A DNA stretch of 64,000 nucleotides from Paraescarpia echinospica (Eukaryota > Annelida > Polychaeta > Sabellida > Siboglinidae), in the NCBI GenBank assembly GCA_020002185.1, contig CM034531.1, forward strand, positions 40,905,690 to 40,969,689. Reading direction: 5' to 3'. The notes beneath the pieces are model-generated. The model was not told where the DNA came from, did no database searches, and was given only the letters and a program-made list of their open reading frames with translations. Positions 148 to 51,640 of this stretch are shown here, piece by piece. How positions within the stretch are numbered: the first letter of the stretch is position 1; each line of letters begins with the position of its first letter. The position numbers were made by a program, and so were the translations under genes.

Positions 148-369
148 CCAAGGTCGGTGATCCTGCCAGAGAACGGTGGTCCGTGGAAGCTGTCTGACTG
201 GGTGAAGGGGAGCAAGGCTGAACCCCGGGACCACCTCAGGCCGTCTCACTCCACAGGGCGTCTCGGCAGTGCCCCCTCCAGTATCATCAACTCTCCCGCC
301 CACAACACCACCGAGCCGTCATCTATGTCATCTCCCTCTGAACAAGGCCTCAATCTGCTTGATGTTGTC
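148..369 (+). CDS. DNM1L: DRP1 exon, variable domain (B insert)
   Basis: Seventy-four codons, phase 0 at both ends, between acceptor ttgctgcag and donor gtaagt. The text is low complexity, rich in Ser, Pro and Asn ([19 protein letters not shown]), as expected for the disordered variable domain, and ends in the conserved NLLDV just before the effector domain. The last codons and the donor are the first copy of a 46-bp tandem array. Confidence 0.88.
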
Positions 370-3300
370 GTAAGTCACAGCTCACATGTACATCAGTTGT
401 CAGATTGATGTTGTCGTAAGTCACAGCTCACATGTACATCAGTTGTCAGATTGATGTTGTCGTAAGTCACAGCTCACATGTACATCAGTTGTCAGATTGA
501 TGTTGTCGTAAGTCACAGCTCACATGTACATCAGTTGTCAGATTGATGTTGTCGTAAGTCACAGCTCACATGTACATCAGTTGTCAGATTGATGTTGTCG
601 TAAGTCACAGCTCACATGTACATCAGTTGTCAGATTGATGTTGTCGTAAGTCACAGCTCACATGTACATCAGTTGTCAGATTGATGTTGTCGTAAGTCAC
701 AGCTCACATGTACATCAGTTGTCAGATTGATGTTGTCGTAAGTCACAGCTCACATGTACATCAGTTGTCAGATTGATGTTGTCATAAGTCACAGCTCACA
801 TGTACATCAGTTGTCAGATTGATGTTATCATAAGTCACAGCTCACATGTACATCAGTTGTCAGATTGATGTATCCAGTGCGTTGTAGTTTGCCTACGTCA
901 CAATCATCATTTTGCGTGTGACCTCCATCAAGCTTTACCTTTGCCACCAATGCTGATAACGGTTATACAGTGTATATATGAATTATATAACAATCGCTGC
1001 ATGACATCTTGTAAATCAAACATTCCTGCATACGGGTATCACTTTTAAAACTTTGCCTTATGTCCTTGTTATAAAGAGACACTTTTGTGGCCAGAATTTC
1101 CATAAAATATGTGCAAGAATGCACCATATGTTCGTCCATGTTTTAATGGCTTGGCAGAGCTTTTGCTAGGCAACAGCTCACATAATGGAGACATCAGTTG
1201 TACATAGTTCGCAGCTTTATTTATTGATGATAGTTATTTAATAATACTAATATGTATATTTCCACATAGAAATATATGATGATTGCTTGAGGGAAGCTTC
1301 GAAATTATAAGCTGCTTGTCTTTTTCATGTTCTTTTGTAAAATCACTAGCTCGAAGTTACGACTAACTACCGTGGTAGTCGCATTTGCGAGTATATTACG
1401 CCTGCGACTAGATAAATTGCTTTAGTCGCAATGCGTGACTTGGAACTTTGTCCATTAATTACTGTCCTGCCAGGCAACTGACCACTTGGGACCCTTATGT
1501 TGGTACAGCCATCAGACAAATTATGAATGATGACATTTTAACCCCATTCTCTGCCCCTGCTTACCCAATACAGCAGCAAATATTGATCAATTGTAGCAAG
1601 TGACTGATGACTTTTTGCCTAAGGCTATGAGTTCATAGTCCTATGCAGGCACCCTTGTACTGTCCACCCTTGTACTGTCCACCCTTGTACTGTCCACCCT
1701 TGTACTGTCCACCCTTGTACTGACCACCCTTGTACTGACCACCCTTGTACTGACCACCCTTGTACTGTCCATCCTTGTACTGTCCACCCTTGTACTGTCC
1801 ACCCTTGTACTGTCCACCATTGTACTGTCCACCCTTGTACTGACCACCCTTGTACTGTCCACCCTTGTACTGTCCACCCTTGTACTGTCCACCATTGTAC
1901 TGTCCACCCTTGTACTGTCCACCCTTGTACTGACCACCCTTGTACTGTCCACCCTTGTACTGTCCACCCTTGTACTGTCCACCCTTGTACTGTCCACCCT
2001 TGTACAGTCCACCCTTGTACTGTCCACCCTTGTACTGTCCACCCTTGTACTGTCCACCCTTGTACAGTCCACCCTTGTACAGTCCACCCTTGTACTGTCC
2101 ACCCTTGTACTGTCCACCCTTGTACTGTCCACCCTTGTACTGTCCACCCTTGTATCACTTGGTGATTTGGGCAACCAGCAGAAAGGGGTGCACTGGTCTG
2201 GAAGGAGGTTCTGGTCTGAGAGTAAATTCCGGTTCCATTTCCCGTATTGCGCATGCGATTGTACATGTCAAAGGTTAGCGCCTACTTTCAGCCCGCAGCT
2301 GTATAGTCTGGAAGTAATTTCCGTTCTAAGGGTAAGTTCCAGTTCCGTTTTGCTTATACACTGTACATGTCAAAGGTTAGCGCCTATTTTTGGCCAGCTT
2401 AAACACGGTGTTGGCCGAAACTATGTGTGACCAAATTATATTATAGTTTACGTTAATGATACGGTTACTTTTGTAATTGTTCGTATACATATCAAACCCT
2501 CATAATTAGCATAACTTGAAATTATTTGCCAAACAAATTGTTTTATTTTTGTCATTGTCTCAGAGCATTGTGTATCTTATGACTTCGTCACACAGAGCTG
2601 CATTTTTCAGCGCTGTTTATACGCACAGCGGGTTTTGTGGTAAACACAAATGACATATATCTGTGTCAGTTTGGCATGTATGAAGCTGAAATGGTGTGTG
2701 TAATCTAGCAGTCTCATTGGGGGTGGTTCGTAGATTTATATTTAAAAAAATTTGTGGGGGTGGGGATCCTGGGAGGTAATAATTTATAAATGACACATAT
2801 CTCTGTCAATTTGGCATGTGTCACTGTAGGGGGGCAAGTAGGTCAGTGGAGTAACGGTCGCTACAGCCAGCGAAAATTATTAATTATGTAACTCAGTGCC
2901 GCGAGCGTCGAACAAGGGTCAAAGGTGATCGGTCACCTGAGGTCACGTTGCTCACTGCGATGTAACTCAGTTGCCACATACTTCTGGCACGGGGTCAAAG
3001 TTGATTGGTCAGCTGAGGTCACATTGCTCACTGCGGGTGGCATTTGATGTACTGCACTTGCGCGAGCATGCGCAATACACAAAACGGAACCAGAACTTAC
3101 TCTCAGACCGGAACCTCCTTCCAGACCAGCACAGGGGAACTGTTTTTTTTTAAGTTTAAACTGAAATAGTGTGTGCCTATGCAAAATTAAACATAATGCC
3201 TGTCAAAATATATAAGGGATAATTTTCCTTGTGTTAATACTGTATGGATATAGAAAGTCAAAATAAATGTGTACAACGTAAAAGCATTCAATCGCTTAAG

Positions 3301-6300
3301 TAATTGTTATGTTTGTAAATATAAATATCAAAAATATTATTGGGTAGCATGCATGGCTAGGTCCAATTACATAACTGTATCTGCAGTTTGTTACAAACAA
3401 ATGTTATGTATACCTGTAGTAGCAAAGATAATAATTCAGAACGCTGTACATAGTGTTGATTATTTAATATAAAATTATGTTCAATGAAATCCCATGACAT
3501 GTTTAGTTTTGCATTATAAATAGTTAACACGTGTGCCCTAAAAAAAATTAGTTTGCTCCTAAATATTTCACTTTAGGAGCAGAGCGCCCCTAGCTCAGAA
3601 TGTTAACTTCGAGCCCTGGTATGGTTCTGTTTTATTTATATATCCTTTCAGTTTATATATTTATAAAATTTGCACCTATTTAGATACATTCAAGTTGTCA
3701 AAAAAAAAATATTTTGCAATGTCAGACACCTAGGCATCCGTTTGTAACCAAACAATGGCATTCTGTTTTTTAAATATTGTTCAGAATAGACAGTTGCAAA
3801 TTATACACACAGTTGTTTTCTATGTAGCTGTTTATCAGCCACCTGGTTATGAGGGTTTGTTCTGAGAAGACTTGTTGTGTGTTTGCAGCCATCCCTGCCC
3901 TATACCAGGCGGCTGTCAGTGCGGGAACAACAGGACTGTGATGTCATTGGTGAGTCACTGTCACCTACACAGGGGGCTGTCTTGTCATCTTATGTAATCA
4001 TACATGTGAAGTTATGAATGATTCGTTTATTCAAACATTGGCAACATGATACAAGAAAAAGACAACCGTGTACACATACATAACCATATACAGGCCTGTA
4101 TATATTTAATGCAATATAATTATACTTTATCTACAAGATACCATATACACATACAAGTGTGTATACAACGTTTGAAGTGGGTAAACATGAAGTCAGTGAC
4201 TTTTATGTAAGTTTACCCCGACAATCATAAAAGTGTTAGGTTTCCATCACGTGTACTTTTTCACACACTATAATTGATACATATTGTGCACCCTCTCCAT
4301 GTAGTTATTGTGATGGACGATATACAGGTTATCATATATTAGATACCATGATTCAATATGTTAACTGTTACATTTCCACAGTGACATATTTATGAAATAG
4401 ACGTTTTAGTCCTTTGGGCCGAACGTTCAACGGACTCACTCTGCATCCGCCGTTAGCTGCCATATCTCAGAAATCATTCGTCAACTTTTTCTCTAATTTT
4501 GTATAGACTTATCTTAGGGTACTGCCACTATGCACAAGAAATCTGTAATTGATTGAATCATTTTAATGGTCCCCCCAGGGCCCCGAAACTGGTAAATTTT
4601 CACATTTTGTCTATTTTTGGGCCGAAGGTCCAACGGACTTATGCCATCACTCTGCATGCGCCATCCGCCGTTCGCCGTTAGCTGCCATATCTTGGAAACT
4701 GTTCAGTAGCTTTTTCTCTGATTTTGCATAGACATATCTTAGGGTACTGCCACTATGCACGAGAAATCTGTATTTGATTGAATCATTCTAAGGGCCCCAT
4801 AGGGCCACCACGGCCCATATTTTGCCTGTTTTTTTCTCAAAAATTCTTCAGTAACTTTTTCTCTAATTTTGGACAGACATTACACGTGGAGTGCCACACA
4901 AGAGTGCGTACACAAGACATCTGTATTTGATTGAATCATTCTAAGTGCACCTCAGGGGCCCCCAAAATACAAAATGTTTACACTATCTAGTGATTTGGTT
5001 TTGAGAAGGGCCCTTGAGACCACCCCCTAACAGTAGATTTTGTGTATTGTGCCAGAAACAGAACCTGACAGTTATACCCCTTCCCTACAACATCTGTCAC
5101 ATGCGGAGTCTGTGTCTTGCATGGATATCTATTTTTATGCAGTTGTTTTATATGGAGGTTGTCTTTTCTGTTGTGTAATTATAAGCAGGATGTTTGTTAA
5201 ATTAGTTATTTTTAGGCCACAGAAAAGTAATTCCCAGTTTCTCATCAATGCATGTATTTAAAAATAGGTGCCACATTTTATTTTCTATTATAATTATTCC
5301 TCTAAATGCAAGACGTGGTGCAATAAGTGAACAGTAAACATGTCAACATTTTACTTCCAAACTTACCTTTATGATCTGTAACAATGATTCACCAAAAAAA
5401 CATTTGATTAATAATTACCTACAGGGTTGTTTGATTTATGCCGGGCAAAAACTGTTTCTGCCCAGCAGAAACGGCAACAATAGGAAATACATGCCATTGA
5501 TAGGCAAACATGTTCTTTTTATAGAAAACGTCAGTTTCTTTCTGTGTTGTTACCAACAAGGTTGTTTGATTTAAATCTTTTGATTTAAATCATTGAATTA
5601 AATCATGATTTAAATCACTCCAAAAAATTACAAAAACATTAATTTATGATTTTTGGGCCGAAGGTCCAATGGACTTATGCCATCACTTTGCGTCCGCTGT
5701 GCGCTATTAGCTGCCATATCTCAGAAACCGTTCAGCAACTTTTTCTGTAATTTTGCAACTATCTTATTCATGCAGTTACGTGTGTCAGTACAATCCACCT
5801 GAGTCATTCACCAGGTATCGCTGTGTTTCAGTACAGTCCCTCCAAGTCATTCACCAGGTGTCGCTGTATTTCAGAGCGCCTCATCAGGTCGTACTTCCTC
5901 ATCACTCAGAAGAACATCCAGGATTCGGTGCCCAAGGCAATCATGCATTTCCTTGTGAACTATGTGAAAGACAACCTGCAGAGTGAACTAGTCAGCTGTC
6001 TCTACAAGACAGATGGCATAGACCACATGCTTGAGGAGTCGGAACACATCGCAACTCGGCGCAGGGAGGCTTCAGAAATGCTCCAGGTCAGTTGCTGCAT
6101 TGTTTGTTATCTCTAGCTTTCACGTAAACAAACAGCGTTTCAAAGTTATTGGTCAGCCATATATAAATGCATATGCTATTTATTTGATATACAAGAACAA
6201 AAACGAGGTAGACAAAAAGGTCATGCAGTATTTTGTTTTTCAACAAATTCACAATCCGGAGGATGGGCATTTTTGCTAGGTATTATAATCAGGTAAATGT

Positions 6301-6520
6301 TCAATCATCTAGCCCAAAACTTATGCATGCTTTAAAAGTGCTGGTCTTAGATGTAGGACAGTGAAATAACATTGCTAAAAAAAGATGATGTATCACATAT
6401 CTACCTTTGTTTTCTAGTTTCTGGTCGGTTTCGTGTTGTTCTAAATGTGTTTGCTGTTTGTAGGCCCTACAGAATGCAAGTCACATCATCAGCGAGATCA
6501 GGGAAACACACTTGTGGTAA
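148..6520 (+). CDS. DNM1L: Dynamin-related protein 1 (DRP1), last four coding exons
   Basis: Coding segments 148-369, 3889-3949, 5875-6086 and 6464-6520 join in frame (phases 0, 1, 0) and end in TAA. They encode the C-terminal part of the mitochondrial and peroxisomal fission GTPase: the variable (B-insert) region, then the GTPase effector domain. The joined protein reads NLLDVV, then [19 protein letters not shown], then [20 protein letters not shown], and ends SEIRETHLW, a close match to animal DRP1. GTPase and middle domains lie upstream of the window. RRLS at 3907-3918 corresponds to the PKA-regulated serine of vertebrate DRP1 (established for mammals, inferred here). All four exons have consensus splice sites. 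The intron after 369 opens with a satellite that copies the donor. Confidence 0.95.
361..868 (+). repeat. 46-bp minisatellite that contains the DRP1 5' splice site
   Basis: About 11 head-to-tail copies of a 46-bp unit. Each contains gatgttgtc|gtaagt, the last three codons of the preceding exon followed by its donor. The copies are almost identical, with a few changes (gtcataag, atcataag) at the distal end. Confidence 0.93.
870..1640. other. DRP1 intron, unique sequence
   Basis: AT-rich intronic sequence. No coding frame, terminal repeat or RNA gene could be recognised. Confidence 0.5.
1651..2154. repeat. 15-bp tandem array in DRP1 intron
   Basis: About 33 copies of a 15-bp unit (acccttgtactgtcc) with scattered single-base variants. 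Because 15 is divisible by three, open frames run through it on both strands (repeats such as CPPLY and VQGWT). These are not proteins. Confidence 0.95.
2186..3142. mobile_element. Inverted-repeat element, roughly 0.95 kb, in DRP1 intron
   Basis: About 75 bp at 2190-2265 (ggtctggaaggaggttctgg and onward) recurs in inverted orientation at 3065-3139 with about 85% identity by eye. The left arm also has a diverged direct copy at 2303-2390 sharing catgtcaaaggttagcgcct. It looks like a degenerate MITE or foldback element. The ends and target duplication were not resolved. Confidence 0.5.
3143..3888. other. DRP1 intron, unique sequence
   Basis: AT-rich sequence with no recognisable feature apart from short A and T runs. 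Confidence 0.4.
3889..3949 (+). CDS. DNM1L: DRP1 exon, start of GTPase effector domain
   Basis: Acceptor gtttgcag, donor gtgagt, exit phase 1. It encodes [20 protein letters not shown]. The R-R-x-S site lines up with mammalian RKLS (Ser637 region). Confidence 0.92.
4402..5570. repeat. Dispersed repeat family Z, in DRP1 intron
   Basis: Contains diagnostic stretches such as gggccgaaggtccaacgg, gttagctgccatatctcaga and agaaatctgtatttgattga, each present more than once here. The 5040-5570 part (ccacagaaaagtaattccc, acagggttgtttgatttatg) recurs at 55855-56080 and 57955-58240 in the TMEM243 intron. The family therefore has a long, probably untranslated consensus. No coding potential was seen in this copy. 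Confidence 0.75.
5571..5870. repeat. Short palindrome cluster, family Z fragment and duplicated acceptor
   Basis: At 5572-5620 the 10-bp palindrome gatttaaatc occurs three times with a degenerate fourth. At 5650-5760 lies another family Z fragment (gggccgaaggtccaatgg). At 5786-5870 are two tandem 43-bp copies sharing gtcattcaccaggt and ending in tttcag before the DRP1 exon. Confidence 0.7.
5875..6086 (+). CDS. DNM1L: DRP1 exon, effector domain core
   Basis: Acceptor tttcag, donor gtcagt. It encodes [19 protein letters not shown] and onward to [10 protein letters not shown], the helical effector domain. The 43 bp before the exon are duplicated in tandem, so two extra CAG acceptors lie upstream at 43-bp spacing. 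Confidence 0.95.
6464..6520 (+). CDS. DNM1L: DRP1 terminal coding exon
   Basis: Acceptor gtttgtag. Eighteen codons, [18 protein letters not shown], then TAA at 6518-6520. The ending matches the conserved C terminus of animal DRP1. Confidence 0.93.
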   Translation, partial: ALQNASHIISEIRETHLW

Positions 6521-6637
6521 TGCACTGGTGTTCACACACAATGAGCAACTACACACCTACGGGAGTACACTGGTTGACACACATACTGGGCAACTACACA
6601 CCTGCAGTAGTGCACTGGTGCTCACAAACAGTTGGTA
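6510..6637 (+). repeat. 45-bp degenerate tandem repeat starting at the DRP1 stop codon
   Basis: About 2.7 units sharing tgcactggtg, cacacac and gcaactacacacct. The first unit begins within a few bases of the TAA, so the beginning of the 3' UTR has been copied. Confidence 0.7.
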
Positions 6638-7636
6638 ACAATGCATTGCAACATAGATGAACCTCAAGATGCGACATTGTTGTTGTCATCAAGTCATGGC
6701 TGAGTGCAGATCAATCCTATGTGGCAAATATGTCATTGCTCTGAATGCTGCTATCGTTCACATCTGATGTGTGTGTCAATTCTTTGGAGTTTTGTTCAAT
6801 CACAGACACAGTGTATAAAAGTTACACAAGATGTGACGGTGACAGGCTTGCTGAAGTACCCGGTAGTTTCAGTGTGGAAACAAATACGGAAGCACAAAGT
6901 TTGGTGTATTTGTCACCACTTTGTTGTTCTGCTCCATCTATCGCCAAAGATCATGTCGAATCTGAAAGTGAAACTCCAAGCTCGTGTCAAAACAGTGCAT
7001 TTATTGTTTATAGAAGGACTTATTTGGAGAATTTGGGTCCTTGCACACATTCTTCCACGTGCAGTGTGTGGTCCAATGTATGTAACTTTGTATGTTGTAA
7101 AAATATTAGGGTTTTCTGCTATTTAGAAAGAATGCACTACACGTGGAGTTTGGCCATGACACTTTGTTTCCGGTGGTATATAGCCAACACTGTAAAAATA
7201 ATAGTTTGAAATCCAAGATGTAATTCTATTTAAGATGATTTAAGGGTATGTATAAGAGATTGAGACTGTGATAAACCCCAGATAAAAGTCCTGTGGATGT
7301 GGCAAGATTTGGGAGGTAGGGTAGTCTGTAAGTAAGCATTTGGCCGGTACAGTACATAGCCTTGCAGGAAGAAATACCTACAGAATGTTGTTGGAAGTTC
7401 CAGTTTGCTGTAAAACAAATTCAGTTATGTTCCGGTGCTATGTTTTACATAGCTCTCTAGCTAGGAATTGACAGTTGACACAATGACATGAACTTTTATC
7501 CTGTTTGTCTTTGCTAAGACAAGACTGCCAAACATGAGGTTCAATAGAAACAGTGGTAAATGTAAAATGGACGTTGGATGTTTTGTAATTTAAATTTACA
7601 CAGTACTTTTTTGTCACAGTGTATTAATAGAACAAA

Positions 7637-8098
7637 AACGTATAGGTTCTGTGGTTTACACACACTGTTACTGTTGCAAACGTATAGGTTCTGTAAGGTT
7701 TACACACACTGTTACTGTTGCAAACGTATAGGTTCTGTATGGTTTACACACACTGTTACTGTTGCAAACGTATAGGTTCTGTATGGTTTACACACACTGT
7801 TACTGTTGCAAACGTATAGGTTCTGTATGGTTTACACACACTGTTACTGTTGCAAACGTATAGGTTCTGTAAGGTTTACACACACTGTTACTGTTGCAAA
7901 CGTATAGGTTCTGTATGGTTTACACACACTGTTACTGTTGCAAACGTATAGGTTCTGTATGGTTTACACACACTGTTACTGTTGCAAACGCACTGTTACT
8001 GTTGCAAACGTATAGGTTCTGTATGGTTTACACACACTGTTACTGTTGCAAACGTATAGGTTCTGTATGGTTTACACACACTGTTACTGTTGCAAACG
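7637..8098 (+). repeat. 44-bp tandem array in DRP1 3' UTR
   Basis: About 10-11 copies of a 44-bp unit with core cgtataggttctgtatgg followed by tttacacacactgttactg. It lies downstream of the stop codon and probably inside the 3' UTR. Confidence 0.92.
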
Positions 8099-9379
8099 TT
8101 TGAATCTGGACCATCCTGGTAGTTGTGATGTATTCCAGCTTTTTATTTGGAATGGGTCCTTGTTTACCTGCATTTATTTACAGTGTTTTGATAAAACCAT
8201 TAAAAAAAATTGAAATTCACATCCCTTGATATTGTTTGGGAGTCTTACCTGCTTTAGTTTTAAACTAAGGTGTACTTAATGAAAAGTCTAATGTGATTTA
8301 GACAGCTGAGCTGGTGAAAGTGAACAAGACATAAGCCAAGTATGGGGTTGTATGCATTCTCTTACTGCTACTATTAACTACAGGTACACCTGTGTGTGTA
8401 TTTAGGCAAATACTGAAGTGTGATGACCAACTACATTGCACCTTATAGAGTGCACAGCTATATTAGGTGTGGCTCACAATGAATGCACTACCCAAAGGAA
8501 AGCTGATACACTGCATCAATAACTTAACAGTGCTTCAATTGGAGTTCCGTATATTGTGAGTCTTCTTATGTGAGCATAATACATGCTATCTGTTTGTGTC
8601 TGAGTGTGTAAATGTCGAGAAATATATTCCTTGTTCTATCAGTTATACACAGTAAGCATGGAAGTTAATTAACAAGTGGACCTTAATGATGAGGCTTATG
8701 CAAGAGTGCTAGAACCGAGAAGTTTTTTGTTTACTACAATGAATTATTAAACATTAATTGTATTTATGATTATTCAGGATCACTCTGCAGTGGTGAAAGT
8801 GATTCAGCGAACTCGATTTGTACCTTGCTAAGCTAAAACAGTGTTACATGTGAGCCTCCGCTGACTGGAGAGTACATGGCATACAAGTTTAGACGACGAT
8901 TTCTCTTTCGAACTGTTCAGACCATTAACATTTTAACTTTTCATCTGATATTTTGCATGGAAGACCATAATTCCTACATTGGGAGAATCTGACACTTTTT
9001 TCTGTGATGTATATTTTGATTGGCAGTAGTTACCTCTTACAGTGCTATTGCTTACTGCATGGAAACAGGATATTGTAGAGGTATTTCTATTTCCTTCCAT
9101 GCATTGTCCTTACACAGCCAGTTTTTTATATGTTGCTGTAAATCCCACATAAAAATGTAGCTTCCACAAATTACTGTTGGTCGTTGAAAACACTACCATG
9201 ATAGCTAATGTGTCAACATACTAGTGAATTTGAAATATTTGGTGGCATTGACACATAAATATCCAACATAGTGAAACAACCCCTTATTGGCTGTCAGTGA
9301 TAATTTGTGGACTACTTTTGTAGGTATGGATACTTGATGTAAGCGATATTAAGTTAATTTCTGTAAATGTGAAGAATGT

Positions 9380-9385
9380 AATAAA
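9380..9385 (+). terminator. Candidate DRP1 polyadenylation signal
   Basis: AATAAA followed about 20-30 nt later by a GT/T-rich stretch (gtcgtgttttttat). This would give a 2.9-kb 3' UTR. No transcript evidence is available. Confidence 0.4.
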
Positions 9386-10620
9386 ACTAACTGATTAATC
9401 CACTGTCGTGTTTTTTATACAAAAGCATGCATTAGATAGATAATTGATTAAGTTACATATATAACAATTGAACATCATACTACTGTTATGTTACAAAACA
9501 GTTCCTTGGAACAAATGTTATTGTCATTATAAGTATATAGTAAGTTGAGTAGGCAACAACTTTCACAGGTTAAGTCATTGATTATATAATTATCAATCAA
9601 TATTTTATTTCAGACTCAACATTGCTGTCCATTAACAAGTTTAGACATACAAATTAAAAACACATGAAATGTACACAAAAATAAAAGGTTTGCACTATTA
9701 AAGTTGAAACCCAAATTTAGGTGGTTACAAACTTACAATTTGTTTAACTGAAAATGCAACATATATCTGGAACTACTGTACGAAAACTATTTGTACGCAA
9801 CTATTCACTATATGCAGTCAGGTCACACAATACACTCACGTCCAGAATATTTGGGGCAGGTCAAAATTCGTGGTACTGAAATCTTGTGTTTTAATGCTCT
9901 TGGCCTATTTTGATACACTGGTCTCGCACTGATTCGCATTAAAGAATGCCGGGTCTCCTATTATTTCCCTTTGTCGCATCTGCCTATTCTGTTTGTAGAC
10001 TCAGTATTCTAATTTGGGCACGTATTGCAACGTTCTTCCTCTGTGTTGATTTCCTAGATAATTTAGACATCAACTTACTCAGTTAGCCAATATGTCACTG
10101 TCTAATAGAAATCACACTCGGAGGAAGATTCTAATTACTCAATCATCGCAGAAGACTTTCCATTGTTCTTTCAAGAACTTTCATACAGATCAATATAATC
10201 AAAAAGTTGGTTCTCCTTGGGAACCAGACATGGTGTTACATGGTTTTCGCGTGCAAGTCTCTCCCAATCGCGCACTACTCTCCTTAAATACTGGCTACTT
10301 CCCTCTCTTCCTACATAGACTGGCCATTCCCATTGGTCAGTGCATCTTCTGCATTTCTTAATATGGCGCGCTACAGTCGGGCTCGCTACCTGGCTACCTT
10401 ATCTGTTAGCTGACTCATATCCGGACTATTAAAGCAACTAGGCTATGCTTGTCCAGCTATCTTTGGAGATTACCTGAGCTAAACCTAGGCTAGGGGAACT
10501 TCCTGTATCTCAAATCTAATTATACGACACCAAGCTACTAGGCGAAAGCAGTTGTAAAATATACTTATTAAGCATAACTTCTTATATAATAATTAATATA
10601 TTTCATGGATAAATAATTAC
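9386..10620. other. Intergenic spacer
   Basis: Between the likely DRP1 poly(A) site and the next repeat. An 89-codon open frame at 10092-10361 has no recognisable similarity and no splice context. Confidence 0.4.
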
Positions 10621-10623
10621 TAC

Positions 10624-10858
10624 CCAGCGGGCAAACTGACGTTGTAACGACGTTGTTTCGACGTCAGGCACCGACGTCGAAACAACGTCGAAAACACATT
10701 GGATTTGAAAGTTGTATCGATACCCGACGTTGTTCCGACGTCGGGTGACGACGTCGGATGATGACGTTGTTACGACGTTGGGTGACGACGTTGTTCCGAC
10801 GTCCGGTACCGACGTCGAAACAACGTCGATACCCGACGTCGGAGCAACGTCGTCACCC
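10624..10858. repeat. GACGTC/AACGTC-rich element with CCCAGCGGGCA end
   Basis: Starts tacccagcgggca and continues with dense variants of gacgttg, gacgtcg and aacgtcg on both strands. The same motif vocabulary fills 17740-18905 and 20630-21150, where the arrays end in the inverse complement gtgcccgctgggt. This suggests one family with short inverted ends and a GACGTC-rich interior. Confidence 0.7.
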
Positions 10859-11312
10859 GTAGTTTTTGCCATGTTTCAAACTAGTATGCATAATTGGGCT
10901 CACTGTGGAGCTTACGATGAACATGCAGATCCTAAGCTGAAGGGGTGACACCACACCTAAAAAGTTAATAACAAATACTGTATTCACCATATTCTGACAG
11001 CTTTCTGTATTAGCTGTCAATAAATGTCACAAACTATATAAACTAATTTGTGGAATATCTTGGGAGTATTGTAATTTGTTTGAATTTATAACGGTATAAT
11101 TGTGAAAGAAATATACTTTCAAATGTGTTAAGGTTTAGTGATGAAAAAATACCCATAACTTTTCTTTCAGTGTTATAATGTCTTGGATAAGCTATAATTC
11201 AGACCAAAAACAATTCCATTAATTGCGCAAGAAAATAAAATAATACTATGACAGCGTATCTATACAATTAAATATAAAGATATTCATTATGTCGTGGTAC
11301 AAATCACATCAT

Positions 11313-11318
11313 TTTATT
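11313..11318 (-). terminator. Candidate polyadenylation signal of the unidentified gene
   Basis: AATAAA on the minus strand, about 75 nt after the TAG. Confidence 0.4.
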
Positions 11319-11391
11319 TCGTACAAATAAAACAATTATTAAAATTAAATTAAAATCAAAACATTACCAATTACACAAGCTGGAATTCTAT

Positions 11392-11503
11392 CTAGTTGTG
11401 AGCCTTCCGTCCACCACCTCCAGCCCGGTCTGGTGTATATTTAAGGCATGCAGAGACGGCTGCAGTGACCTCTGTCTCCGTTCCGACCTGGTTCTTCAGG
11501 ACA
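11392..11503 (-). CDS. Terminal exon of unidentified gene
   Basis: Thirty-seven codons plus TAG. Frame continuity with the preceding exon requires the acceptor gcagcgag| rather than the CAG four bases upstream. The other frames hit stops within the exon. Confidence 0.65.
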
Positions 11504-14456: not shown

Positions 14457-14489
14457 CTGTGTATAACAGTCGACTTTGTACGTCACCTT

Positions 14490-15520: not shown

Positions 15521-15624
15521 TATCTGACCGCCCTTTCTGTTATCTGTTAATGGAATAGAAAGATGTCACATTGTGCAGATGACTTGTGACAGACCCAGCC
15601 TTGTCATATGTTACTACACAATAT

Positions 15625-15690
15625 AACATTAATGAATACAGAGTATATATAATATATATATATATATATATACATATATATATAATTTTG
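15625..15690. repeat. TA/ATAC microsatellite
   Basis: Alternating (TA)n with ATAC interruptions. Confidence 0.85.
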
Positions 15691-16213
15691 GAACATTTTG
15701 TGGAGAAAGGGTGGATACACTTAAGAGTGGTGACGTGTACATGGAAATCATATTTTGGACAAATTTATATAAATCTGGTTGTTTAAATTTTTCACGTCGG
15801 ATAACAAGTACCAATTTGCCGTTTTTCGAGAAAAAAAAATTGAAAAGTTTATTTATGGTGATCATAATGTTTGGGTTGTTGATGCCAATTGGGCATATCT
15901 TTCTAATGAACCTTTTGTTATCATTCGGTATAGCTAGGGTTTAAAACCAATACATGGGTGAGTTTTGTTAACATTGTACCAATTGCAAAAAACGGACGAG
16001 ATTGCATTCCGTGGTCCATTATTTGAACCCAATCCATGGCGGATGTGTACAACGTATATAAAACGTAATTCTCGACACATAGCTGGATGGTCACTGGCGG
16101 ACGTGGCGATAGCGCAATATTGTTACGTTGTTGCTACGTATTGGTACACGTTTGTAGAATGCGTGTATAGAACGTACATATAAAACATAATTCATAATGT
16201 TACGAAACCATTA

Positions 16214-21160: not shown

Positions 21161-21164
21161 AGGA

Positions 21165-27338: not shown

Positions 27339-27453
27339 GTTATACAGTTGCAGTGACACAAATACAGAAGAGAATGTGACAAGCCAGTGTGACTACTTCT
27401 CTACATCAACCGACCACACCACAAGACGGTCCTCATCGCAAGAGGTTAGAACA

Positions 27454-27675
27454 ATGTCTTTCCCCCATTCTCACAAGACCGTCATTGTCCTGGACCGCAG
27501 TCCACACTTCCTTCGCAGCAGTAAGCAGAATGTAGAGTTTGACGTTTTCACCAAGTCTCGCACCCCGGGCATCATCCCCCTCGCTCCCATCGTCAAGTCT
27601 CTGTGGACGTGCAATGTGGAGGCAGCGATCGAGTACTGCCGCATTGTCTATGATGTCTACCCTCAGAATAAACTT
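27454..27675 (+). CDS. INTS13: INTS13 exon 1 (start codon)
   Basis: Seventy-four codons from ATG, ending VYPQNKL before donor gtgagt. The upstream 5' UTR part of the exon probably begins just after the TIR element (acceptor-like agttgcag near 27350). Confidence 0.93.
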
Positions 27676-30600
27676 GTGAGTACTGGTCAACTTTTCCTCA
27701 TCTTAGTCATTTCAGTTTCAAATGTGTAGTTTTATAATTAAGTGGTACATGTTAATCACTACCATTAAATGTCAGATTATTGTTGGAGACTCCCTGATGA
27801 TATTCCACTCTTACTTTGTAGTGCTCAACTTGATGACATACTTGAACAATTATTTTTAAAACATTTTTATTGATGACGTAAAGTTAATAATATCAGACAT
27901 TGCTTGGACAAACAAATGTAGCTGTAGCCAGGGTGTTATGCATGCTGTAATTGTAATTCGCAGTAAATGAGACCCTGTAATCAGTTGTCATAACGGCAAG
28001 TTAGGAAACATGACGTTATACATGTTTTGTAATCCATATATGTACGTTGTAGATTAGGCTCGTGTTGAGTGACACAGTAGCTACAACAGTGAACAGTTGG
28101 GAACAGCAGGAACAAAATATACAAAAGGTGTGTGTTTATCTAGAAATGTGTCACACCACTCAGAAGGACTTGAAGTCTGATGTAATACAAATTCTCAAAT
28201 ATTTACATAATCATAATATTAAAACAGTACACATCAGTTTGTTGGTGCTTTCAGGTTGTCATCAGAGAAGGGATGGTTACACCACAAGTTAGATTACTGT
28301 CAATATTTATGAGTATAAGTATGATTACTATTACTGGAACGATTGCTGCTAAATGAGTGTAATTTATTACTATTAATTTAGTAAGTAATCATGGTCACAG
28401 TCATGGCTTAAATGAATTGGCAATGTCTTATTTCTACATAGAAGTGTAGCTAAGACCATTATTTTAGTATATTTATTTAATTACTGTATTTATTTGTATT
28501 TTGCTAATATTAATTTTATAAGAATTTCTTTTAGAAAATGCATGTTTATTTAGCCATCATTATCATCTGGGTTCTACAAAGCGCATCTCCTTTATTCCTC
28601 TGCTGCTTTCAGTTGATGTTGACACTAGCGAGACAAGGGCCACCGTCTCAGGCAAGTTCGCGGTCGGATGAGAACAACATCATGAACGGCTTGACGGAGG
28701 CGGTAGGACTGCTGTGTCAAACGACAGCGACACAACACGCCCGACGCACAACACTCTCTGACTCACCTCTCTCTGTCACCAACCGGGGCCGCATCATCTG
28801 TCTCACCAGTCTCAAGAGGTCAGCACCAGTTGTTTATATCAAACCAAAGTGTCTTTGGTTCCAGCAGTATGTTGGACAATTTCATAAAAAATTGTCCGTG
28901 CATACCTTTGTAAGTGTAAACCAATAACATTCACTTCACAAACAAGAACTCATGTTGACTGGATACAACTTTTGCCGTTTAGTGTGATTTGTGACATTGT
29001 CCCACAGATGTGACATTGTCTAAAAAATATGACATTGTCCCATAGATGTGACAAAGATGTCCTTCATGCGAGATTTATACATTACCAACGGCAGTTCATT
29101 GGTTTGTTTGAAACTGGTTATTATTTGGTCCCACAAATAGTGATGTAATATTTATTGTAATGATGTTAGCCAGTGATTCTGTGTGTTGCAGTGAGTCCCG
29201 CATCCATGTGATAGAGGAATGTATGCAGGACGCACTCACCCAACACAACAGTCTGGCCGCCAGCACAGACAAGTAAGTGTCTGCTACCACATCCACTTAC
29301 AGTTGTCTGCTGACAGGTGTCTGCTACCACATCCACTTACAGTTGTCTGCTGACAGGTGTCTGCTACCACATCCACTTACAGTTGTCTGCTGACAGGTGT
29401 CTGCTACCACATCCACTTACAGTTGTCTGCTGACAGGTGTCTGCTACCACACCCACTTACAGTTGTCTGCTGACAGGTGTCTGCTACCACACCCACTTAC
29501 AGTTGTCTGCTGACAGGTGTCTGCTACCACACCCACTTACAGTTGTCTGCTGGCAGGTGTTTGCTACCTCATCCACTTACAGTTGTCTGCTGACAGGTGT
29601 CTGCTACCACATCCACTTACAGTTGTCTGCTGACAGGTGTCTGCTACCACATCCACTTACAGTTGTCTGCTGACAGGTGTCTGCTACCACACCCACTTAC
29701 AGTTGTCTGCTGACAGTTGTCTGCTGTGTCTGCTACTGCTGACATCCACTTACAGTTGTCTGCTGACAGGTGTCTGCTACCACATCCACTTACAGTTGTC
29801 TGCTGACAGGTGTCTGCTACCACATCCACTTACAGTTGTCTGCTGACAGGTGTCTGCTACCACACCCACTTACAGTTGTCTGCTGACAGGTGTTTGCTAC
29901 CTCATCCACTTACAGTTGTCTGCTGACAGGTGTTTGCTACCTCATCCACTTACAGTTGTCTGCTGACAGGTGTTTGCTACCTCATCCACTTACAGTTGTC
30001 TGCTGACAGGTGTCTGCTACCACGTCCACTTACAGTTGTCTGCTGACAGGTGTCTGCTACCACGTCCACTTACAGTTGTCTGCTGACACGTGTCTGCTAC
30101 CACACCCACTTACAGTTGTCTGCTGACAGGTGTTTGCTACCTTATCCACTTACAGTTGTCTGCTGACAGGTGTCTGCTACCACACCCACTTACAGTTGTC
30201 TGCTGACAGGTGTTTGCTACCTTATCCACTTACTGTTGTCTGCTGACAGGTGTCTGCTACCACATCCACTTACAGTTGCCTGCCAACAGATACTTAGGGT
30301 TCCTGGCAGTTATACCTCAGCAGAACAATATATGAATTACACCCCTGGGTTATTTGTTTTGGGCAATTGGTAAAACATGAGTTTTAATATGAAACTAATA
30401 GTGTATTGTAGCATGAAGTGGAACAGTTTTAAAGCAGTAGTAGTATGTTGAAACTTCTGTTGGGAAATGACTGGAAAAGTGCTGCTTTCATGTGTTAATC
30501 ACTCTGGGTACGTGCCCCGACAACGATACACCTTGTCAACAGGTGTGACAATAGCCAATCACCAAACTAAAGTACCTTGAGAGGACCATGCCAGGTGGTT

Positions 30601-33600
30601 GAATTCTTGGTCCACCCATCCTAGAAACAAAATTAATAAATGTTATATAATGTGATGGAGATATGTGACAAAATGAAATCATACTGTATTTTATTGACAA
30701 TAATAAAACTGTGTTAGTTGACCAGAATTTTGCAGTACTATTGTATGAATGCATTCTATAGTGGTGTTTATGTGATGCCTTTCAGTCTGATGCCTCTCAG
30801 TCATCTTGAGTTGGTGCTGGTGCATGTAGTGCCTGTGTCACATGAGAGTGCAATCACTCACAAGCCTAGCAGAGAGGTGAGCACTACTGATGCATATATG
30901 ACTTCTACTACAGAACATCTATTTCTTTGGACAGATATTTTCTTAATCTTTTCATATGCATAATGTCTGTGATACAGTGGTAGTATTCCCAAACATTAAA
31001 TATCAAAATTGTGAATACAAATTACAGTAACGAAATGAGTTGTCAACCAATATCTTCCCTGCTCAATAGATCTCGTCCTATCTGTCAAGTGAGGTTCACG
31101 TCAGTCAGTCGGGGAGGTTCATCGCCACCAAGATGGTCGAGTTGTCCATGCAACACTTCCAACTCTCATGTACCACCGTCACAGGCATACCCATGAAGGT
31201 AGGACACTGTGACATGAACATACATCACTCACAGGCATACCCATGAAGGTAGGACACTGTTACATGAACATACATCACTCACAGGCATACGTATGAAGGT
31301 AGGATACTGTCACATGAACATACATCACTCACAGGCATACCCATGAAGGTAGGACACTGTCATATGAACATGCATCACTCACAGGCATACGTATGAAGGT
31401 AGGGCACTGTCACATGAACATACATCACTCACACGCATACCCATGAAGGTAGGACAGTCTCACATCAACATACATCACTCACAGGCATACACGTGAAGGT
31501 AGGACACTCTCACATCAACATACATCACTCACAGGCATACCCATGAAGATAGGACAGTCTCACATCAACATACACCACTCACAGGTATACACACAAAGGT
31601 AGGACACTCACATCAACCTACATCACGTCAACCTACATAACTCACAGGCATACCCATGAAGATAGAACACTGTCACATCACTCGCAGGCATATCCATGAA
31701 GGTAGGACACTATCACATCAACATACATCACTCACAGGCATACACATGAATGTCAGCATCAGCTTACATCATAGTTACATGAACATAATTCACTGTCATA
31801 CGTGTTTACAAAATGGAAGAACATTTTACACATATAATCAAGAAATTGTCGATCCAATAGGTAGAACTGTGAATGGACATAACTACCAGAATAGTCAACT
31901 GTCATTACAGTGTGATACATTTGTAAAATGAGAATGTTTCCTGTTTCGAACTGACTCATCATTGAAGTGTATTGACACTGTTGTTTGTGTCATGACAGGA
32001 GGAACAGAATGCAAGTTCCTCAGCCAACTACGATGTGGAGTTGCTGCACAGTAGACAGGCCCACCTGGAGGTGTCTAGGACAGGTAAAATACAACAAACA
32101 TGCCCTCCTGGGGTTTCTAGAACTGGTACAATTTATTACTCATACAGATTGTAGGTTATCTGCTAGACAAATTTCAAGCGTTCCGTGTCAGGTGTAGGAC
32201 AAGTCAGCTATATGTGCTATATATCTGTATATGACGTCATAACATTAATGAATAATATGATGATGGTGTTGATGTTGATATTTGTGTGATTTCAGGAGTA
32301 GGAGCCGTAGAAGGGATGATCATGCCATCCAAGGAAGGCCTCTTCATAGACACGGTCACTCTCAAGTGGTGCACTCCTCGCACCAATGCAGTTGGTAAGG
32401 AATAGACAGTCACTCTCAAGTGGTGCACTCCTCGCACCAATGCAGTTGGTAAGAAATAGACAGTCACTCTCAAGTGGTGCACTCCTCGCACCAATGGAGT
32501 TGGTAAGGAATAGACAGTCACTCTCAAGTGGTGCACTCCTCGCACCAATGCAGTTGGTAAGGAATAGACAGTCACTCTCAAGTGGTGCACTCCTCGCACC
32601 AATGCAGTTGGTAAGGAATAGACAGTCACTCTCAAGTGGTGCACTCCTCGCACCAATGGAGTTGATAAGGAATAGACAGTCACTCTCAAGTGGTGCACTC
32701 CTCGCACCAATGGAGTTGGTAAGGAATAGACAGTCACTCTCAAGTGGTGCACTCCTCGCACCAATGGAGTTGGTAAGGAATAGACAGTCACTCTCAAGTG
32801 GTGCACTACTCGCACCAATGGAGTTGGTAAGGAATAGACAGTTACTCTCAAGTGGTGCACTCCTCGCACCAATCCAGTTGGTAAGGAATAGACAGTCACT
32901 CTCAAGTGGTGCACTCCTCGCACCAATGGAGTTGGTAAGGAATAGACAGTCACTCTCAAGTGGTGCATTCCTCGCACCAATGGAGTTGATAAGGAATAGA
33001 CAGTCACTCTCAAGTGGTGCACTCCTCGCACCAATGGAGTTGGTAAGGAATAGACAGTCACTCTCAAGTGGTGCACTCCTCGCACCAATGGAGTTGGTAA
33101 GGAATAGACAGTCACTCTCAAGTGGTGCACTCCTCGCACATATGCAGTTGGTAAGTAATAGACAGTCACTCTCAAGTGGTGCACCAATGAAGTAGGTAAG
33201 GAATAGGTTTCATCAACAATGCACAGTAATCTGCCACCTGACATTTTGGCTTCAATAGAAAATATATATTGTAATTGTAGTGCCACATAAAATATTAACT
33301 ACCATAAAGCAAACATGTTATGTTTCAATTGTAACAATGTTAGTTACTAGACTGAGAATAATCAGCACAACTGTTAGTAAACCTGTTATTTATTTTTGCA
33401 GAGCTGCACCCTTGCCATGGGGCTTTCCGCATCACCCCAGTTGACGTCAACAGTCGACCTTCATCATGTCTCACAAACTTCCTGCTCAATGGTCAGTATT
33501 GACTGCCCATCAACTGACCAACAGCCAACTACCGGCCGACCGACTGTAAACATATTATTTTGGGGTGAACCTTAGCTTTGTAGATACATTTAATGAGAAA

Positions 33601-36600
33601 TATGTTAATCGTATTGTGCAAGTTATTGTTACTGACATACTTTATATCTTGTAATATATAAGTTGACTGCCTCTATGATGTATAATATGAAATAAGAGTT
33701 AAATAGAATATTCTAGAGAGGCTATGCAAAATAAACTTATAAATGTCAAAGAATCTAATAATCATAAAGAAAGAACACATTTGATGATTTTTATACAGTT
33801 CAAACACTAGGATTATGACAACCAAAGTTAAGCTGCAATTAATTTGTTATTATTTAATATTATGTTTTTGATAATTGTGAACAAACTAATGGAATATGGT
33901 TACGTACAGTGTCTTCGTCAAAATGAGTGCATGGTGAACAACATATATGTGAAATAGTTCTGTCAACATGTACAAGATGTGATTGCTTCAGGTCGGTCAG
34001 TGATGTTGGAGCAGCCGCGCAAAACCGGCAACAAGGTCATCTCACACATGCTGACTAGTCACGGAGGAGAGATCTATATCCACATCCTGATGACCTCCAG
34101 GTCAATCCTAGAGGATCCTCCCTCCATCAGTGAGGGTTGTGGGGGCCGCATCACTGACTACCGCATCAATGTAGGTCACACTTCACTGACTACTGCATCA
34201 ATGTAGGCCACGCATCACTGAGTCGCATCATTGTGTAATAATAATAATTGTTTTTTAATATAGCGCTTTTTAAGTAAGTTAATACTAATCAAAGCGCATC
34301 ACATATTAAAATGAAGTGTTGACTAAATGCTAAAATATAAATTAATTAAATAAATAAGCTAAGATAAAAAAAACATAAATAAAAAAAAAAAAATTAGGGT
34401 GTAAAAATACAATTTCAAACAATGAAATTAAAAACCAATCAATACTATAAAATAGAAACCAGTGTCATTTAGATGTGGCAGCAGTGCTTGCATCAAGGCA
34501 TGCAGTGCAGGTGAAATAGATGGGTTTTAAGTTGTTTCCGAAAAGCCGCCAATGTTCCAACCGATCACATACACTTTGGCAAGCTATTCCACATATGTGG
34601 GCCTGTCACTGCAAAGCTGCCCCGTCAGATAGTTCTCTTAGACACAGTCACCGCGAGAAGCATTGTGTCACTCGCCGATCGCAATGCACGTGTGGGCATG
34701 TTGCGAACTATCGCACAGTTGAGGTAGTTTGGGGACAGTTGGGGCAGGATTTTAAATATGTAAGTACATATCTTGAAAATAATTCTCATTCTAATCGGCA
34801 ACCAATGCAGTGATTGCAGAATTGGTGTGATGTGATTTCGCATATAGGTCACGCATCATTGACTACTGTATCAATGTAGGTCACACATGACAGACTACTG
34901 CAGCAATGTAGGTCACACTTAACTGACTACCACATCAATGTTGGTCACACTTCACTGACTACCACATCAATGTAGGTCACACATCAGTGACTACCACATC
35001 AATGTAGGCCACGCATCGCTGATACCACATCAATATCGGTCACACATCACTGACTACCGCATCAATGTAGGTCACTCAGTACTGACTACAACATCAATGT
35101 AGGTCACACATCACTGGCTATTGTATCAATGTAGGTCACACTTAACTGGCTACCGTATCAATGTAGGTCACACTTAACTGACTACCACATCAATGTAGGT
35201 CACACTTAATTGACTACCACATCAATGTAGGTCACACATAACTGACTACTGCATCAATGTAGGTCACACTTAACTGACTACTGCATCAATGTAGGTCACA
35301 CTTAACTGACTACTGCATCAATGTAGGTCACACTTAACTGACTACTGCATCAATGTAGGTCATACTTAACTGACTACTGCATCAATGTAGGTCACACTTA
35401 ACTGACTACCACATCAATGTAGGTCACACTTAACTGACTACCACATCAATGTAGGTCACACTTAACTGACTACTGCATCAATGTAGGTCACACTTAACTG
35501 ACTACTGCATCAATGTAGGTCACACTTAACTGACTACTGCATCAATGTAGTTCACACTTAACTGATTACCACATCAATGTAGGTCACACTTAACTGACTA
35601 CTGCATCAATGTAGGTCACACTTAACTGACTACTGCATCAATGTAGGCCACGCATCACTGAGTCGCATTAATGTGTAATAATAATAATTATGTTTTTAAT
35701 ATAGCGCTTTTTAAGTAAGTTAATACTAATCAAAGTGCATCACATATTAAAATGAGGTGTTGACTAAATGCTAAAATATAAATTAATTAAATAAATAAGC
35801 TAAGATAATAAAAACACATAAATAAAAATAAATAAATTAGGGTGTAAAAATACAATTTCAAACAATGAAATTAAAAACCAATCAATACTATAAAATAGAA
35901 ACCAGTGTCATTTAGATGTGGCAGCAGTGCTTGCATCAAGGCATGCAGTGCAGGTGAAATAGATGGGTTTTAAGTTGTTTCTGGAAAGCCGCCAATGTCC
36001 CAACCGCTCGCACACACTTTGGCAAGCTATTCCACATATGTGGGCCTGTCACTGCAAAGCTGCCCCGTCCGATAGTTCTCTTGGACACCGTCACCGCGAG
36101 AGGCATTGCGTCACTCGCAGATCGCAATGCACGTGTGGGCGCGTTGCGAACTATCGCACAGTTGAGGTAGTTTGGGGACAGTTGGGGCAGGATTTTAAAT
36201 ATGTAAGTACATATCTTGAAAATAATTCTCATTCTGATCGGCAACCAATCCAATGATTGCAGAATTGGTGTGATGTGATTTCGCATATAGGTCACGCATC
36301 ATTGACTACTGTATCAATGTAAGTCACACATGACAGACTACTGCATCAATGTAGGTCACACTTAACTGACTACCGCATCAATGTAGGTCACACATAACTG
36401 ACTACTTCATTAATGTAGGTCACACTTAACTGACTACTGCATCAATGTAGGTCACACTTAACTGACTACTGCATCAATGTAGGTCACACTTAACTGACTA
36501 CCACATCAATGTAGGCCACACTTAACTGACTACTGCATCAATGTAGGTCACACCTAACTGACTACTGCATCAATGTAGGTCACACTTAACTGACTACTGC

Positions 36601-39600
36601 ATCAATGTAGGTCACTCTTAACTGACTACCACATCAATGTAAGTCACACTTAACTGACTATTGCATCAATGTAGGTCACACATTGCAGACTACCACATAA
36701 AAATAGCTCACACATCACTGACTACCGCATCAAAGTAGGTCACCTATAACTGACTACTGCATCAATGTAGGTCACACATCACTGACTACAGCATCTATGT
36801 AGGTCACACACCACTGGCTACTGCATTAATGTAGGTCACACATCACTGACTACCACATCCATGTAGGTCACACATCACTGACTACCACATCTATGTAGGT
36901 CACACATCACTGACTACCATGTAGGTCATGCATCATTGGTCATCATCATCAGTACTATTTCCCAATTACATAAGTCACGCATTACTGACTATTGCATCAA
37001 AGTAGGTCACACATCACTGACTACTGCATCAAAGTAGGTCACCTATAACTGACTACTGCATCAATGTAGGTCACACATCACTGACTACAGCATCTATGTA
37101 GGTCACACACCACTGGCTACTGCATTAATGTAGGTCACACATCACTGACTACCACATCCATGTAGGTCACACATCACTGACTACCACATCTATGTAGGTC
37201 ACACATCACTGACTACCATGTAGGTCATGCATCATTGGTCATCATCATCAGTACTATTTCCCAATTACATTAGGATGCACCATTCAGTCTCAAATTTCCA
37301 CAGCTTGCCATGTCTCCATCTTTGTTATAATCGCAAACTGTTGCCAGTTATTCACAATTATGTGCCGATGTTCAAATTAGGCATATTGCATCTTTTAGCA
37401 GATGTTAGTCTCAATCCTGGACCAGCTATCAGTTACAGTATGAGGTTTGCCATGACTAATATGCGTTCTATTTGTGGCAAGACAGCATCTTTGTGTGATT
37501 TGGTATTTTCTAAAATAATTGATATTCTTGCTGTCATGGAAACTTGGCTGAAACCAAACGATACTGAGGCACGTGTTGCTGATATAATACCTCCAGGATA
37601 GTCTTTCTTTCACCAACCATGGTTAGTTGGGAAAGATGGTGGAGTAGGTTTCCTCTTATCAGATCATTTTAAATTTAATGTACATTCAGTCCCTTCATAT
37701 TCCTGCTTTGAGTCGATGTGTGTTGACATTTCCGATTCTTCATTTTCAGCCTATTTCATCTGCCTTTATCATCCACCAGGACACCCAGTTAATTTCTTCG
37801 AAGATTTTCAAAATCTTCTAGATAACCTGATAATATTGCATTCAGATTTATACCGCTCAACTGCCTGTGCTAATGGGCGAATGGGTCATTATAAACTGGG
37901 ATTCCCAGAAGTCGTTTATCCGTCTTCAAATTGGGGCGGGTATTTGCGCTGTTCTTTCGGGTGATGCAGTCGCAACTGCCAAAATCAATCACCCAATTAA
38001 ATTATAATAAGAGTATTACAACATAATATTGTCTTTTTTTCCAAAGTTTATGACCCAAGCTGACAGGGGCATTTGTAATGAATGTACTACTTGTGATCCT
38101 TGGTGACGGAGGCATGATTTATAAACACGCTTTTAAAAATGTTTATTTTTCGGTGACAATTGTAATATTTAGCAAACATACATGAATTTGAAAACGTGCA
38201 ATTAATGACATGTATGGATGGATATTATTTTGTATAGCTATGAAAGGATTGCACTTTGGTCGGGAAGAGTTGAAAGTTGATGATGGGCGATAATATGGTG
38301 TCGGCGGTAACAAACGCTGTTCACGATGCTCGACTAAAGCTTATAAACAATGTCAACGACAGGCAAGGAGTAGGCAAGGCACAAGGGTATTGATTAGACT
38401 GTTCTCACTGTCCAATCATCAATGTAAGATGTAATTTAAATAACTCGGGCCGTTGTTCTGCTTGTTTTCCGCACGGCCGTTGTCTGTGTTCGGGCGCAGA
38501 CTGGAGCAAACCGGAGCGCTATTTGGGCCTCATAATGTGCTAAAGCCTAAGATGCAACATTTTTATAGCATAATTATGCTTGGGATGACGTTGAATGATT
38601 TGATTATCGCATCAACATGTCAAATTTAGGCAAAACTTTAGTTAATAACGGAAAAATCGAGGTGGGCCCGAATTCTACACTGGCTGACTGTCACGACTCA
38701 CAGGTGTGCCTAAATTTTCTCAGATTTCTCAGACACGTTTTTGTATGCGTCTTTTGGGCACATCCGACAAAAAAGTATGCGGCATTCCAGCATACAACGC
38801 GCTTCAAGGGAATCCCTGATGCATACACATTCTGTGTTAACACACACCTGTTGACTTATGTTTGCACTTGTCATAGCATGTGTGACCTTGCAGGACTTCG
38901 GGGAGATGATGCGTCAGAACTGGCTGGCACCAGTCGCAGACATTTCTGGCTTTGACGAGTTGCCCATACAAAGAGGTATTGTTCAGTCATTGTAACATTA
39001 AATCAAAGCATAGTCATAATATGAAAATAATGTGCAATAAATATGAGAAATTATATATTCCATTGTGAGCCTATGGTGATGATCAAAGTTGGATGTTCAT
39101 ATCAGGCCAAACAAATAATTCTGTTAAGATGTTTTTATTACAGTAGGGAGGTCGGATAGGATATTTTATATTATTTTGTATCGACGCATTATCATGCCAT
39201 GTAAATGAACAATGTTCCTTTCATGCAGTCAGCCTCCTGTTAATTGTGATTTATTTATGAGTGTTTCTGTTACACACGCATGCACGCCCACCCGCACACA
39301 CACGCATTGATGTATACTTGGTGACTATCATAAAACAAGTCAAGTATGAAAATAAATAAGACACACTAAGACATCAGTGTCTGAATTTTCCAGATGTCAA
39401 AATGAAATTATGATAGCACCAATATGACTTAGTTAAGAAGTGTAAGCCAGCAGTGCTGAACACATGTACAGTGTAGCATGCTTATAACGAACGTGGATAC
39501 AACGAATTGACGGATATAACGAAACAATTTCTTACGTATGGATTTTTTCCCTATCTTTTCCATTATAAGCATTCACGGTTATTACGAACACCTTTTCCCG

Positions 39601-51592: not shown

Positions 51593-51640
<48 letters not shown>

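Follow-up and report, generated by a model that had tools for sequence, protein, structure and literature searches.

Why should minisatellites begin at the ends of exons? The question is raised by a 64,000-nucleotide stretch of the siboglinid annelid Paraescarpia echinospica (hereafter the window; GenBank assembly GCA_020002185.1, contig CM034531.1, positions 40,905,690 to 40,969,689), in which the genes DRP1 and INTS13 carry tandem arrays that lie on the boundary between an exon and the 5' splice site (donor) that follows it. An earlier note on this DNA had described such arrays at one DRP1 exon and at INTS13 exons 6, 8 and 10, and had proposed either a mechanism that nucleates tandem duplication at donors or selection that keeps arrays there. 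Tandem Repeats Finder (TRF) and exon mapping confirm all four arrays, and INTS13 exon 4 adds a fifth. We find that the edge arrays are real, that they are commoner at the coding edges of the named genes than uniform sliding within introns predicts, and that they are not specific to donors. Our reading, to which we assign a probability of about 0.6, is that they are "mirages", that is, minisatellites with the edge of a coding segment in their unit, and that duplications straddling such an edge survive since splicing uses the site adjacent to the exon.

The window lies at 40.9-41.0 Mb on a 96.7-Mb contig of a 1.08-Gb assembly (1,083,790,144 bp), and its recognised genes, all on the + strand, are the 3' part of DRP1, INTS13, and parts of TMEM243. 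Exons were placed by spliced translation and homology, and arrays were detected with TRF (score at least 80, period at least 10), which yielded 24 merged arrays, three of them blocks of a single 32-bp array. The genes and donor-edge arrays concerned are as follows.

148..369, + strand: DRP1 (DNM1L) exon, ending LLDVV, with donor GTAAGT at 370
359..871, + strand: DRP1 donor array, 46 bp, 11.2 copies, beginning 11 nt within the exon
27454..47799, + strand: INTS13 gene, 16 coding exons, frame open once spliced, stop TAA at 47797-47799
29277..30283, + strand: array of INTS13 exon 4 (29192-29272), 40 bp, beginning at intron base 5
31179..31750, + strand: donor array of INTS13 exon 6 (31070-31198), 50 bp, 11.4 copies, beginning 20 nt within the exon
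32346..33184, + strand: donor array of INTS13 exon 8 (32296-32394), 54 bp, 15.5 copies, beginning 49 nt within the exon
34149..37216, + strand: donor array of INTS13 exon 10 (33992-34170), 32 bp, beginning 22 nt within the exon

As the earlier note had described, the arrays begin inside the exon; this is so for four of the five, which start 11-49 nt in and have units that span a single boundary, taking in exon as well as intron sequence (11 exon and 35 intron bases in DRP1). The exon 4 array contains no exon sequence by TRF, and its units carry the weaker donor-like CAG/GTGTCT. The claim that the units differ from array to array also holds, judged from the TRF consensus units by inspection rather than alignment. 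Counting the functional one, and at a low threshold of 1.7-2 bits, there are 9 donor copies in DRP1, 9 at exon 6 and 14 at exon 8, with 43 in the exon 10 blocks. The latter array consists of three blocks (34149-34221, 34845-35651 and 36288-37216) parted by one inserted sequence that is present twice; between 34220 and 37260 the insert and an array block are duplicated with 89% identity over 1.47 kb, and because they were duplicated together the array seems to have been amplified with the insertion inside it.

Which of these donors is used may be read from the protein. The INTS13 exons join into a single open frame when the first donors are used, and the product of exons 3-10 (320 residues) aligns with human INTS13 at an E value of 4e-118, so that every array in this gene yields the conserved protein from its first donor. 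In DRP1 the first donor preserves the frame into the next exons; exon 148-369 gave no tblastn match of its own and is assigned because its frame joins following exons with DNM1L matches, its LLDV being read by eye. The contention that the conserved protein comes from the first donor alone is thus upheld, and protein conservation suggests that this is the donor that splicing would use.

We compared the positions of the arrays with a null model in which every array was slid uniformly inside its own intron, with up to 70 nt into the exons permitted. In the window (19 introns, 13 arrays), 5 arrays lie at a donor edge against 1.14 expected (p 0.0013), a figure that depends on discovery, the pattern having first been noticed there. 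Our second set of introns comes from two ABCC genes, ABCC1 and ABCC2, in 50 kb and 40 kb of sequence around TIGR00957 matches that were picked for their family match and not for repeats; exons were located by a scan for splice sites and codons, for which the window served as training set, PDB matches to MRP1, and tblastn with human MRP1. These 26 introns with 17 arrays have 5 arrays at acceptor edges against 1.85 expected (p 0.02), and ABCC1 alone (19 introns, 15 arrays) has 4 at donors against 1.61 (p 0.049) and 4 at acceptors against 1.59 (p 0.050). All 45 introns and 30 arrays together give 9 at donors against 3.0 (p 0.0009), 6 at acceptors against 3.0 (p 0.06), and 14 against 5.9 at either edge (p 0.0001); an edge array is present in 13 of the 45 introns, at both edges in 2. 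Replication outside the window is real but modest.

The ABCC donors with an array that starts at most 10 nt away or inside the exon are, in joined coordinates, 6600, 6918, 31132 and 32274 in ABCC1 and 31398 in ABCC2, while arrays end at the acceptors 4886, 6772, 9410 and 45192 in ABCC1 and 38293 in ABCC2, with ABCC2 34522 less sure; the acceptor copies were seen by reading the array sequence. The 32-bp unit of one ABCC1 donor array, composed of 18 exon and 14 intron bases, occurs in 52 copies. Copies of splice signals recur in the units throughout, the exception being the ABCC1 array at 31128, where no further donor exceeds the threshold. An in-frame stop codon precedes the later above-threshold donor in 7 of the 8 donor arrays that have such a donor, so use of a later donor would truncate the protein. 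In the eighth, at ABCC1 6600, the sole later donor-like site coincides with the acceptor junction, 171 nt downstream, and no stop comes before it, and two further donor arrays have the stop and no later donor above threshold in the scanned block.

Several regions did not enter the sliding comparison: the TMEM243 intron downstream of exon 2, for which exon 3 was not found (array 59731-59859, starting 31 nt past the donor); the ABCC1 introns near the poorly conserved linker (joined 16255-29727; arrays 17877-21762, 21769-21852, 22732-22897 and 23310-29320); the region of the ABCC2 cassette exons (10052-27874), which holds the arrays at 11042, 19968 and 22588; the introns upstream of ABCC2 exons 1817 and 7908, with arrays that reach 18 and 27-46 nt into the exon and would raise the acceptor count; and arrays preceding the first or following the last exon of each set. 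A variant includes the ABCC2 intron 31399-34521, which was added after arrays had been seen at both of its edges and whose acceptor is uncertain, and for these reasons we prefer the 45-intron figures. With it, ABCC has 5 donor arrays against 1.94 (p 0.026) and 6 acceptor arrays against 1.94 (p 0.005), and all 46 introns have 10 against 3.1 (p 0.00025) and 7 against 3.1 (p 0.02), respectively. In this variant, a limit of 40 nt gives 12 against 4.2 at donors and 7 against 4.2 at acceptors (p 0.10), and a limit of 100 nt gives 14 against 6.4 and 7 against 6.4 (p 0.46).

Coding edges of other kinds carry arrays as well.

5780..5874, + strand: DRP1 acceptor array, 43 bp, 2.2 copies, ending exactly at the AG that precedes exon 5875-6086
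6506..6630, + strand: DRP1 stop-codon array, 45 bp, 2.8 copies, beginning 12 nt upstream of the stop at 6518-6520
60822..61127, + strand: TMEM243 stop-codon array, 74 bp, 4.1 copies, beginning one base upstream of the TAG at 60823-60825

Two of the three stop codons in the window thus lie within an array or one base past an array start, the INTS13 stop having none. A 22-bp array (L026, joined 45765-45965) begins 40 nt past the ABCC1 stop and is the third near a coding end; no array comes as close as 40 nt to the ABCC2 and INTS13 stops. Since acceptor and stop-codon arrays exist besides those at donors, what they all have in common is that a coding segment begins or ends there, and a reading confined to donors was rejected for the same reason.

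These observations bear directly on the proposal that tandem duplication is nucleated at 5' splice sites by a process tied to donors, for instance breaks coupled to transcription or splicing, or the binding of U1. The donor excess over all introns tested is what such a process would produce, as is its persistence at limits of 40 and 100 nt where the acceptor excess fades, and an exon of DRC11 elsewhere on the contig (L006) ends in ATTGAGTGTCG followed by GTGAGT and opens an 80-bp donor array (this exon's part of the PDB match has an E value of 1e-11). However, ABCC acceptor-edge arrays are as frequent as donor ones (5 against 4), arrays stand at two stop codons and a further one 40 nt past the ABCC1 stop, and minisatellite units are not enriched for donors in 20 stretches of 10 kb sampled at even spacing along the window's contig, where a donor of at least 4 bits occurs in 3 of 35 units against 1.8 in matched sequence (p 0.32); most minisatellites in those stretches are not donor-derived. 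An excess at donors over the sliding null is therefore borne out while the donor-specificity of the mechanism proposed in the earlier note is not, the genome-wide enrichment for which that note had asked does not show in these stretches of one contig, and we consider a process of this kind unlikely.

The other proposal, selection that retains the arrays as backup donors or as regulators of intron length or expression, could appeal to the many copies in which a strong donor is kept; in the 32-bp array of ABCC1, for instance, 50 donors exceed 2 bits. Yet in four arrays the mismatch per site in the donor 9-mer and in the rest of the unit is 0.033 and 0, 0.028 and 0.119, 0.018 and 0.019, and 0.072 and 0.083, and the GT is lost in 2 of 11, 1 of 9, 2 of 15 and 3 of 52 aligned copies. 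There is no consistent conservation or loss of donor bases in the extra copies across these four arrays, in which they mutate approximately like the rest of the unit, and arrays at acceptors and stop codons would require other functions. Selection as the keeper of the arrays is accordingly not supported, and we regard it as improbable.

Equally improbable, in our view, is an origin of the arrays as traces left by introns that were gained through tandem duplication, a model that the amphioxus study PMC3087553 takes from Rogers. One ABCC1 intron would suit it well: its 171 bp (joined 6601-6771) are nearly all one 32-bp array, which starts at intron base 3 and stops 7 bases short of the intron end, and the last unit can be read as including the acceptor. 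The other donor arrays of the sliding set, however, occupy only part of their introns.

What the arrays themselves preserve of their origin is best seen in DRP1, where a 7-bp direct repeat, TTGATGT, stands at the exon end and at the intron end and the array is exactly 11 units plus these 7 identical bases. Because of this composition, the exon and the intron probably held TTGATGT 46 bp apart before the first duplication, a pattern that would be expected from slippage between short direct repeats. Haber and Louis are said to have proposed in 1998 that minisatellites often begin in this way. The INTS13 exon 8 array has the shared end bases ATAG, read by eye.

Our results lead us to suggest the following course of events for mirages. 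A short tandem duplication would arise where the exon and the intron or untranslated region next to it each hold one copy of a short direct repeat, a small distance apart, and would then grow through slippage or unequal exchange. Duplications entirely within coding sequence would be purged, while those straddling an edge would survive, since the spliceosome would keep to the site beside the real exon (the first donor or the last acceptor) and the ribosome would halt at the first stop codon. The remaining copies would then drift as near-neutral decoys. The birth mechanism, a choice of splice sites by exon-side signals, and the reason for the excess at edges are inferences here.

Several results weigh against this account. 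Survival of straddling duplications by itself predicts no excess over intron interiors, and the observed excess is about threefold, so that something further must contribute, perhaps a higher rate of new duplications in or near exons. Acceptor edges in the window show no excess (1 array against 1.15 expected in the 19 introns, p 0.72), and the ABCC donor count, 4 against 1.85 (p 0.09), is weak alone. End homology was measured exactly for the DRP1 array only. In the evenly spaced stretches, 2 of the 59 exons predicted by the scan have a donor array (its start lying between 60 nt upstream and 40 nt downstream of the donor), and 3 of 59 have an array end near the acceptor, among predictions many of which resemble transposon frames or false exons and from which a rate is not derivable; besides the DRC11 exon, which is a genuine case, the second donor case is a short repeat 8 nt past a predicted exon without a Pfam match. 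The sample speaks against edge arrays reaching the frequency of the named genes in all parts of the genome.

The same stretches are relevant to the possibility that the pattern is an artefact of assembly or arose by chance in a genome rich in repeats. Tandem arrays are indeed abundant, with 50 in 200 kb (of which 10.5 kb are N), array copy numbers may be wrong in the assembly, and the donor excess outside the window falls short when taken alone, as just noted. Against this, the copies differ among themselves, edge arrays occur in six genes on two contigs (DRP1, INTS13, TMEM243, DRC11 and two ABCC genes), and the donor excess across the 45 introns is not readily produced by sliding. We therefore hold artefact or chance to be unlikely too, a shade more so than the donor-bound process, and retain the survival of edge-straddling mirages as our explanation.

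A stronger statement, that coding-segment edges (donors, acceptors and stops) are the birth places of tandem arrays in this lineage and that a sizeable share of introns in ordinary genes, 13 of 45 in those examined, carry a mirage, is one we advance only tentatively. If it is true, edge arrays are a general property of gene architecture, exon identity is set almost wholly by exon-side signals, and dozens of equally strong splice sites beside exons are ignored. Each array is a natural experiment in splice-site choice, with up to about 50 near-identical donors and a protein that comes from the first only, and a genome rich in edge arrays would allow exon definition, the birth of tandem duplications, and intron gain to be measured at many loci. 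There is also a warning for annotation, as exon ends are easily misplaced in such genomes.

Some further features of these loci deserve mention. The acceptor array and exon of ABCC1 (L026, joined 44637-45389) and ABCC2 (L030, joined 38097-38490) are 89% identical over 404 bases, although these paralogs lie 9.4 Mb apart and four other aligned exon stretches are 74-83% identical; this difference suggests gene conversion between the two genes at the acceptor array. ABCC2 also has five consecutive similar predicted exons of about 311 bp (L027-L030, joined 9741, 20440, 23008, 24216 and 27875), arranged as in mutually exclusive exon cassettes. In the TMEM243 intron, positions 59869-60110, directly after a CA repeat, have a GC content of 0.58 against 0.40 and 0.36 in the flanks, and a long open frame (59708-60316) without a Pfam match spans this stretch at the place expected for exon 3; the stretch is unlike its surroundings and is perhaps foreign or misassembled. 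Outside the coding exons, the window contains a reverse-transcriptase frame (PF00078, 14492-15406) and a GIY-YIG frame (PF01541, 41424-42296), the latter presumably Penelope-like. A Pfam search of whole frames, with stops as X, on both strands of 6501-26402 and 48001-62999 found only reverse transcriptase and TMEM243, and Rfam at the gathering threshold gave no match in the whole window.

The closest known relatives of these arrays are the mirages of amphioxus, a name that goes back to an earlier Adh paper and that, in the available portions of the two reports (PMC3087553, PMC3902484), covers Adh3, troponin C, the globins BflGb6 and BflGb9, and PGBD5. There, as here, minisatellite-like tandem copies extend across an exon-intron boundary at a donor or an acceptor, many with the AG/GT signals. 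The hosts of the cases published under this name in these reports are cephalochordates. Searches for the GFP family, of which an abstract gives 16 genes in amphioxus, and for COX1 gave no match in the present genome, the GFP result being no proof of absence. The accessible text reports them singly per gene and does not mention arrays at stop codons, whereas the present 1.08-Gb genome has edge arrays in 13 of 45 examined introns together with stop-codon arrays. According to PMC3087553, regular splicing is left undisturbed by the lancelet mirages; here the first donors give the conserved protein.

Human genes offer single examples. The 31-bp variable number tandem repeat (VNTR) of CBS, c.1444_1467+7(16_21), combines the last 24 exon bases with 7 intron bases in 16-21 copies, a polymorphic number (PMC2630376, seen as an extract), and since its name gives a unit spanning an exon end and an intron start, it is a donor array. 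The present arrays are built alike, with many copies of an exon end joined to an intron start (for example, 11 + 35 bases in DRP1 and 18 + 14 in ABCC1), but the CBS repeat is a single human locus. In the same extract, CBS 844_845ins68 is described as a duplicated intron 7/exon 8 junction at which splicing strongly prefers one of the two sites and the mRNA is normal; a junction is copied as in our arrays, though by one duplication rather than an array. Internal tandem repeats of about 30 bp in human segmental duplications, some at exon-intron boundaries and sometimes with new introns (PMC2812944, likewise in extract), belong to recent primate paralogs and have about 4 units. Among the literature matches listed, a search that left most subscription papers outside, there is no genome-wide count of such arrays and no stop-codon case. 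The type of structure is thus already known from amphioxus and human genes, and what is new in P. echinospica is the number of these arrays in one genome and their occurrence at stop codons.

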